From Pseudomonadota bacterium (GTDB taxonomy: Bacteria; Pseudomonadota; Gammaproteobacteria; QQUJ01): 64,000 bases of DNA. Position numbers and translations under genes: made by a program. The DNA lies in the NCBI GenBank assembly GCA_008501635.1, contig QQUJ01000010.1, forward strand, positions 310,001 through 374,000, read 5' to 3'. Positions 54,666 through 56,936 of the stretch are shown here, piece after piece (positions within the stretch are counted from its first letter, which is position 1; each line of letters begins with the position of its first letter). Below the pieces are notes generated by a model. It was not told where the DNA came from and did not search any database. It was given only the letters and a program-made list of their open reading frames with translations.

Positions 54666-54944
54666 ATGATAAGGAACTTCAAGCACAAGGGCCTGGAGAA
54701 ATTCTTCCTGAAAGGAACCAAATCGGGAATTCAGGCCAAGCATGCCACCCGATTAAGACTGATTCTGGGCCGGCTGAATGCTGCTACGAACCCACATGAC
54801 ATGGACCTTCCTGGACTCAAATTACATGAGCTAAGTGGTGGTCGGAAAGGAGACTGGTCGGTTTGGGTTAGTGGTAACTGGCGTGTGACATTTCGTTTTG
54901 AAGGAATGGATGCGGAAGCGATCGATTATGAAGATTACCATTGA
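54666..54944 (+). CDS. higB: HigB-type RelE/ParE superfamily toxin
   Basis: A 92-residue toxin. The sequence MIRNFKHKGLEKFFLKG, LRLILGRLNAA, DLPGLKLHELSGGRKGDWSVWV and GNWRVTFRFEGMDAEAIDYEDYH matches the plasmid-maintenance killer (HigB) family. These are ribosome-dependent mRNA endonucleases. The toxin-first order and the following HTH antitoxin are diagnostic of higBA. It starts 49 bp after the attC core, consistent with being the second cassette. Confidence 0.92.
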   Translation: MIRNFKHKGLEKFFLKGTKSGIQAKHATRLRLILGRLNAATNPHDMDLPGLKLHELSGGRKGDWSVWVSGNWRVTFRFEGMDAEAIDYEDYH

Positions 54945-54950
54945 GGTGTA

Positions 54951-55241
54951 ATGATGAAGATGCACAATCCACCCCATCCCGGTGAAATACTCAGGGAACT
55001 CTGCATCGAGCCAATGGGGTTAAGCATTACTGAGGCTGCCGAAGCGCTTGGCGTTAGCAGAAAGACTTTGTCAGCTATTTTAAATGGCCATGCAGGCATT
55101 AGCCCTGAAATGGCGGTTCGTCTTTCTTTAGCATTCGGAACGTCTTCCGAGAGCTGGCTGAATCAGCAATCGCAGTATGATTTATGGGAAGCCGAAAAAA
55201 AGCGCAAATCCTTAAAAGTGAGGAAGCTATCAGCAGCATAA
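54951..55241 (+). CDS. higA: HigA family antitoxin
   Basis: A 96-residue XRE-type helix-turn-helix protein. It begins [19 protein letters not shown] and continues [37 protein letters not shown], which covers the DNA-binding helices (about residues 27-60). It should neutralise HigB and repress the operon. It follows higB by 6 bp, and several in-frame ATGs exist (54951, 54954, 54960). The stop overlaps a GCATAAC core, as expected at the end of a cassette. Confidence 0.93.
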
Positions 55242-55630: not shown

Positions 55631-55963
55631 CTATTCATCAAGCACGCGTCGCCGTTCCTCAAATTCTTCCTTGTCGATCTCGCCTCGCGCGAAACGTTCC
55701 TTGAGGATATCGAGAGGGGTCCTACCAGGTGTGGTCGGTGGCGCTGCACCACGTCCTCCCCCGAGCCAGCGGAATATGAGAACAACCGCAGCCACAATGG
55801 CCACGATGAAAACGATCATCATTAGCGGACCCAAAAACATCCACCCTCCGCCACTCCACATGTGTGGCCCATGGTACGGCCAGTCCTGCTGCTGCGCCCA
55901 AGCAGTCGATGATACCGTAAACGTATTGATCGGGATTGCCACCCAAGCGAGCAAGGTCTTCAT
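55631..55963 (-). CDS. SHOCT domain membrane protein
   Basis: A 110-residue protein with a signal-like N-terminus (about 1-23, ending AWA), a Trp/Pro/Gly-rich segment, one TM helix (about 43-66) and a Gly-rich linker. The C-terminal SHOCT motif is PLDILKERFARGEIDKEEFEERRRVL (about 82-107). SHOCT domains are short oligomerisation modules with no defined function. The start follows GAAGGGAG. It is on the opposite strand to the cassettes, so whether it belongs to the array is unclear. Confidence 0.8.
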   Translation of the reverse strand: MKTLLAWVAIPINTFTVSSTAWAQQQDWPYHGPHMWSGGGWMFLGPLMMIVFIVAIVAAVVLIFRWLGGGRGAAPPTTPGRTPLDILKERFARGEIDKEEFEERRRVLDE

Positions 55964-56009: not shown

Positions 56010-56277
56010 TAGAACCTATCTCAGAATCCTCCGCGAGCTGTGCCGGTCGCTCGTGGTTCGAGCGCTAGGCGTGGCGAGCGTGGTTGGGTCATTCCCAATG
56101 AGCGAGCCGCAACACCGCGCTGGAGCCACGAGCGGCCGGCCCTTCGGGTTGGCCCCAGAGGTGCGCTGGCGGTGTTCTCGACTTGCCAATAGCGTTGCTA
56201 TTGGCTGCGCCTTCGGACCTACCCAGCGCACCTCTGGGGCTCTACACAGCACGCGGAGGATTCTGAGATAGGTTCTA
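56010..56277. mobile_element. 264-bp MITE-like element with 24-bp perfect TIRs and TA duplications
   Basis: The ends GAACCTATCTCAGAATCC... (56012-56035) and its exact complement (56252-56275) form perfect 24-bp terminal inverted repeats flanked by TA on both sides. Inside are two hairpins: arm A at 56043-56059 with 56123-56139 (17 pairs, two G-U on the plus strand), and arm B at 56153-56169 with 56223-56239 (17 perfect pairs). Arm B encloses GCCAATAG/CTATTGGC. No ORF is present. TA duplication points to an IS630/Tc1-mariner-type transposase acting in trans (inference). Confidence 0.85.
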
Positions 56278-56570: not shown

Positions 56571-56936
56571 ATGCGTTTTTTGCCTATCGCTCTTATTGTC
56601 TTCCTGCCCGCTTGCGGGCAACCATCGACCGATTACACCGCGTCCACGGAGCAGTCCAGCGACGCCGGTTTGTCCTTCAAGTACCAGTGTGAAAGCGGAA
56701 AATCAATTATCGTTTTTTATCCCACAGACAGTACAGCCGTCGTGGAATACGACGACCGCCAATTCAAAATGGAAATTGCAGTCTCGGGGAGCGGGGCACG
56801 CTATGTGGGTGCGCGCCTGGAATGGTGGATAAAAGGTAGTGGAAAAGGCGCGGCAGGTACGCTGTTTCGTCACCTGGAAGATGGCACCTCGGGCGAAGCA
56901 ATCGAACAATGTGTGCAGGTCGCAGATGCAGCATGA
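56571..56936 (+). CDS. MliC-like lipoprotein (C-type lysozyme inhibitor family)
   Basis: A 121-residue lipoprotein: signal MRFLPIALIVFLPAC, with the lipobox Cys at residue 15. The mature domain has FKYQCESGKSIIVFYPTDSTAVVEY and a Ser-Gly-rich AVSGSGARYVGARLEWWIKG, followed by a late Cys (EQCVQ). This pattern agrees with MliC/PliC periplasmic lysozyme inhibitors, whose SGSGxRY loop enters the lysozyme active site. ATG 56571 is chosen because the signal starts there; upstream in-frame GTG/TTG codons overlap the attC-like site. It could be an integron-acquired gene. Confidence 0.75.
   Translation: MRFLPIALIVFLPACGQPSTDYTASTEQSSDAGLSFKYQCESGKSIIVFYPTDSTAVVEYDDRQFKMEIAVSGSGARYVGARLEWWIKGSGKGAAGTLFRHLEDGTSGEAIEQCVQVADAA

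Follow-up and report, generated by a model that had tools for sequence, protein, structure and literature searches.

The 64,000-nucleotide stretch of DNA analysed here (hereafter, the window) carries at positions 56010-56277 a non-coding element that lies between two divergent genes, one encoding a SHOCT-domain protein and the other a protein with an MliC (lysozyme inhibitor) domain. These 268 bp read TA-GAACCTATCTCAGAATCCTCCGCG...CGCGGAGGATTCTGAGATAGGTTC-TA, which confirms from the window sequence what an initial annotation of this DNA had described, namely an element of 264 bp whose 24-bp inverted ends match perfectly and which has TA on each side. The locus comprises the following features:

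55631-55963, minus strand: SHOCT-domain gene, pointing outward, with 46 bp between its start and the element
56010-56011, no strand: left TA flank, presumed target duplication; the preceding base is C, i.e. CTA followed by GAACC
56012-56035, plus strand: left terminal inverted repeat, 24 bp, GAACCTATCTCAGAATCCTCCGCG
56042-56140, plus strand: hairpin A, with arms at 56042-56065 and 56117-56140; covariance model match at 56049-56134, 106 bits
56065-56118, plus strand: hairpin A apical core, CTAGGCG (56065-56071) ... CAACACCGC (56110-56118), with the internal loop common to a betaproteobacterial homologue
56152-56240, plus strand: hairpin B, with arms at 56152-56169 and 56223-56240 that are complementary at 18/18 positions
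56252-56275, minus strand: right terminal inverted repeat, same sequence as the left one
56276-56277, no strand: right TA flank, presumed target duplication
56571-56936, plus strand: MliC-domain gene, reading away from the element

Promoter and terminator motifs were sought in and around the window copy, and none were found. Near the element, positions 54666-55241 hold a gene for a HigB-like toxin and, after it, an HTH antitoxin-type gene, and between 59000 and 60000 a stretch is repeated in the translated frames (INHKVHEVHKVLTS...), which points to a repeat, either tandem or dispersed.

As plus-strand RNA, the element has a predicted folding energy of -193.9 kcal/mol, whereas 200 dinucleotide-shuffled versions give -110.6 +/- 5.3 (z -15.8). 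The strong fold that had been described, with an end stem around two hairpins, is thus upheld, and the predicted structure also includes a very small third hairpin. Stem A had been said to pair fully if G-U pairs are allowed, and this is wrong: a G-G mismatch (56060/56122) persists, as is visible in the minimum-energy structure, so that pairing along the stem is incomplete even when G-U pairs are counted. The apex of hairpin B (GCGGTGTT at 56169-56176) resembles the hairpin A apex in inverted and diverged form. On a larger scale, the two halves of the element look like inverted, diverged versions of a single hairpin unit, so that the whole 264 bp would constitute a nested palindrome.

Short, non-coding and bounded by terminal inverted repeats, the element has the build of a MITE, and its many dispersed, defined-end copies in one genome are likewise characteristic of MITEs. 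The host genome assembly (3.93 Mb, 30 contigs) contains about 15 full-length copies of 267-269 bp that are 85-100% identical (13 of the ~268-bp copies at 93-100%, and two others at 91 and 85%), along with many shorter, internally deleted copies; several diverged copies lack the basal stem. An 18-mer from the end occurs 100 times in the host when up to three mismatches are allowed, compared to once for the reversed control, and at least 91 host ends match the terminal sequence GAACCYRTCTCRRAATC (a degenerate 17-mer, with at most one mismatch). Within 400 bp of one another, 22 pairs of ends were found, enclosing 58-265 bp. The element is thus far from single-copy, occupying dozens of sites in the host genome, and its copy number, inverted ends and TA flanks bear out the earlier view that it is a non-coding, transposable-type element that needs a transposase in trans.

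The bases that precede 91 of these ends are C (59) or T (25) at position -3, T (79) at -2 and A (78) at -1; the immediate target is YTA before the element and TAR after it, with CTA the commonest. Sequence past the TA does not repeat from one flank to the other, so that the duplication, if any, is TA, and we infer that TA is duplicated at the target. Of the copies that a simple codon-usage gene finder could judge, almost all are intergenic. At the edges of four of them (L012, L013, L015 and L017), a long neighbouring frame stops exactly at a TAG made by the element end. Stop codons seem to be preserved or provided when the element inserts at CTAG, the gene call being rough in three of these four cases, where the frame reaches the edge of the locus.

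Which type of transposase moves such an element is indicated by elements in other genomes that carry the same ends. When a 21-base end pattern was used to search distant MAGs, five loci were recovered, three of which are small two-ended elements with no transposase inside, while the remaining two have one end only, near a contig end. In a genome of the same class as the host (G039), the element end adjoins the tail of an IS5-family transposase gene at four contig ends, and a variant end adjoins the head of an IS5-family transposase gene at four further contig ends. Searching for the G039 transposase tail across the class yielded complete elements, to which a protein search added one more (L181). 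These are an 835-bp IS with an intact 265-aa frame between GAACCTATCTCAAAATY ends (L155/L180), an 839-bp IS with the same ends and a protein 78% identical (L181), and an 837-bp IS, again with the same ends, whose protein is 71% identical (L182/L157). The transposase matches three profiles far above cut-off: PF13340 (E 8e-20), PF01609 (E 6e-16) and NF033580 (IS5 family, NCBIfam; E 3e-60). The ends of the host element are thus found on elements that encode an NF033580-type transposase (L155, L181, L182 and the G039 contig ends), which presumably belong to the IS427 subgroup.

Autonomous elements with these ends (IS of ~835-839 bp) were found in other genomes and not in the host. No relative of the NF033580-type transposase, including contig-end fragments, was detected in the host genome at E <= 0.001 by a search that does detect 37-aa contig-end pieces in G039, and the DDE_Tnp_1 genes of the host are other ones, mostly decayed. 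As the host assembly holds no transposase with these ends, the helper has been lost, is unassembled or has diverged; a resident helper would strengthen the link to IS5, but derivation does not require one. Two host stretches bounded by these ends (C10:700539-705863 and C18:266272-270072) proved to contain ordinary genes or decayed IS of other groups, with no matching transposase.

The movement had initially been attributed to an IS630/Tc1-type transposase acting at TA. The TA flanks agree with that assignment, although they fit IS5-type elements too, and so does the CTAG preference, which has been reported for IS630 itself. The only host match to DDE_3 (PF13358), however, is a 62-position fragment broken by a stop codon, around which no matching ends were found (contig C24), whereas every complete element found with GAACCTATCTCA ends encodes an IS5-family transposase. 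The IS630/Tc1 assignment is therefore unsupported, an IS630-type MITE is highly improbable, and the transposase family is corrected to IS5.

Among 55 further genomes from the host's class, none yielded a copy of the element. With the end pattern as the only query, four genomes in a 369-genome sample were positive, the host among them. A Nitrospirae MAG (G372) has ~24 end matches, and its elements (e.g. L080 5462-5616 and L151 1738-1892) are ~150 bp long, with the same ends and with GC-rich hairpin interiors unlike those of the host; they represent a further MITE family bounded by ends of this type. Plasmid and phage collections gave no match to the element, and the one end-pattern match among viral contigs lies inside a phage gene and was taken as chance.

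A homologue is present in a Betaproteobacteria MAG (BroJett031; L078 6942-7217). At 276 bp, it has the same ends, fold and apical motif as the host element, but only 186 of 264 aligned bases agree and the stems are largely replaced. Read on the minus strand, it can be aligned to the host consensus over its full length, scoring 240.5; interior shuffles, for which the opposite strand of this sequence was used, score 178 +/- 8. The two elements have the hairpin A apex GCYAGGCGCGGCGAG ... GAGCCGCAAC in common, and both BroJett031 hairpins contain the internal loop YA-G-GC / AA-C-ACC; the loop sequence (TAGGC ... AACACC) is also found in host hairpin B when read in reverse. Among the loci fetched, a covariance model of hairpin A matched only members of the element family, with the BroJett031 hairpins, which were part of the model's own alignment, scoring 66 and 50 bits. 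When the interior pairs of the host element were mapped to BroJett031, 44 were unchanged, 8 were changed on both sides, 2 were changed on one side and 27 were broken, compared to 8-18, 2-7, 10-19 and 39-60, respectively, in slid controls. On the other strand, the corresponding numbers were 48, 11, 2 and 18. The structure is thus partly kept between the two elements, with no clear strand preference.

This symmetry bears on whether a folded RNA is maintained, as had been proposed from G-U pairing in stem A. Distinct stem changes were counted on the alignment of host copies, relative to the consensus structure: 20 lead to G-U on the plus strand and 22 to A-C, which is G-U on the other strand (p = 0.88). 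By region, the G-U and A-C changes number 12 and 6 in hairpin A, 3 and 7 in hairpin B, and 5 and 9 in the ends, none of these being significant. Selection for a plus-strand RNA would be expected to yield more G-U changes. Given these near-equal counts and the G-G mismatch that persists in stem A, the case for an RNA built on G-U pairing does not hold, and the compensatory changes between copies that were to be checked follow no strand-specific pattern. An Rfam search of the element returned no family at the curated threshold; a sub-threshold hit to the microRNA MIR3454 (26 bits, compared to a gathering score of 142) was taken as chance. A fold selected as RNA, for example as a processing or regulatory hairpin in read-through transcripts, with compensatory change reflecting RNA function, would account for the very strong fold and for an apical internal loop kept between hairpins whose stems differ, and RNase III is known to process the transcripts of MITEs such as nemis, according to work cited in PMC10969869. 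We nevertheless regard it as improbable, given the even split of stem changes, the pairs preserved about as well on either strand relative to the distant homologue, the few one-sided wobble steps (2) compared to double changes (8-11), and the lack of an Rfam family at the curated threshold. There is no positive evidence for a maintained RNA, and the fold, judged from its sequence changes, shows no sign of upkeep as an RNA read from one strand in particular. The hairpins might instead be recognised as single-strand DNA, as happens in attC sites and in REP elements paired with a Y1 transposase; the nested palindrome, the conserved internal loops and the same hairpin type in the 5' half of each strand would suit such an element. 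Its precise symmetric inverted ends, however, are common to IS5-family elements that encode a DDE transposase, no single-strand signature was seen at the ends, and this explanation is extremely improbable.

Matching arms may originate at the DNA level. Comparing the two ends within each copy gives 14 differences in total, compared to 31.2 expected when ends are shuffled between copies (p = 5e-5), and in copies L005 and L013 private variants occur at both ends. Copy L017 (G000:C30:201843-202110) differs from all the others in having hairpin B flipped, as recombination between its arms would produce. The within-copy likeness of the ends, the paired private variants and the L017 inversion would all fit DNA-level exchange between arms. 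Because the ends within a copy appear homogenised, perfect ends alone do not date an insertion and are weak evidence for recent movement; the claim that they imply it, for which they were the one basis, is unsupported. More generally, perfect ends and compensated stems can arise by arm-to-arm homogenisation of DNA palindromes, and in such elements they need not signify recent movement or a functional RNA.

Taken together, the element is very probably a MITE of the IS5-linked type, non-coding and moved in trans by an IS5-family transposase into YTAR sites with TA duplication. What we observe is its copy number, its ends, the consensus of its flanks and, in other genomes, complete IS5-family elements with matching ends, and from these we infer that an IS5-family transposase moved the host copies. 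Counting against this reading are that the host genome yielded no transposase of this type, even in the form of a contig-end fragment, and that the MITE interior is unrelated to the IS interior, the ends alone being common. Mechanistically, a transposase of the IS5 family (DUF4096 + DDE_Tnp_1, NCBIfam NF033580 type) would be supplied in trans and would cut and paste the GAACCTATCTCARAATC ends, insertion would occur into YTAR (mostly CTAG) sites with TA duplicated, and the arms would be kept matched through arm-to-arm template switching or conversion. A further proposal, which we consider unlikely but worth stating, is that the element pairs two symmetric versions of one conserved hairpin module (with the 5' YAGGC ... 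AACACC internal loop), so that the module is present on the 5' half of either strand, and that selection maintains this module across MITEs from different proteobacterial classes because a protein, either transposase or host factor, binds it in DNA or in transcripts. The tripartite design common to distant hosts poses a small question that is testable.

A literature search for the end sequence returned no relevant paper with the end motif, and these elements apparently represent a widely scattered, so far undescribed family of IS5-linked MITEs. Compared to IS5-family IS with an NF033580-type transposase (DUF4096 + DDE_Tnp_1), the host MITE is bounded on either side by the same GAACCTATCTCARAAT sequence and likewise has TA-type flanks, but it has no transposase gene and its interior is unrelated and palindromic. 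Transcripts of bacterial MITEs such as QMITE2 (PMC5896051) are predicted to fold strongly, as described in PMC10969869, and so is any transcript of the host element. Like other bacterial MITEs, including QMITE2 of Coxiella burnetii and nemis/Correia, the host element is short, non-coding, intergenic and present in many copies with inverted ends, but it is GC-rich rather than AT-rich and holds two inverted hairpin units inside its end stem.
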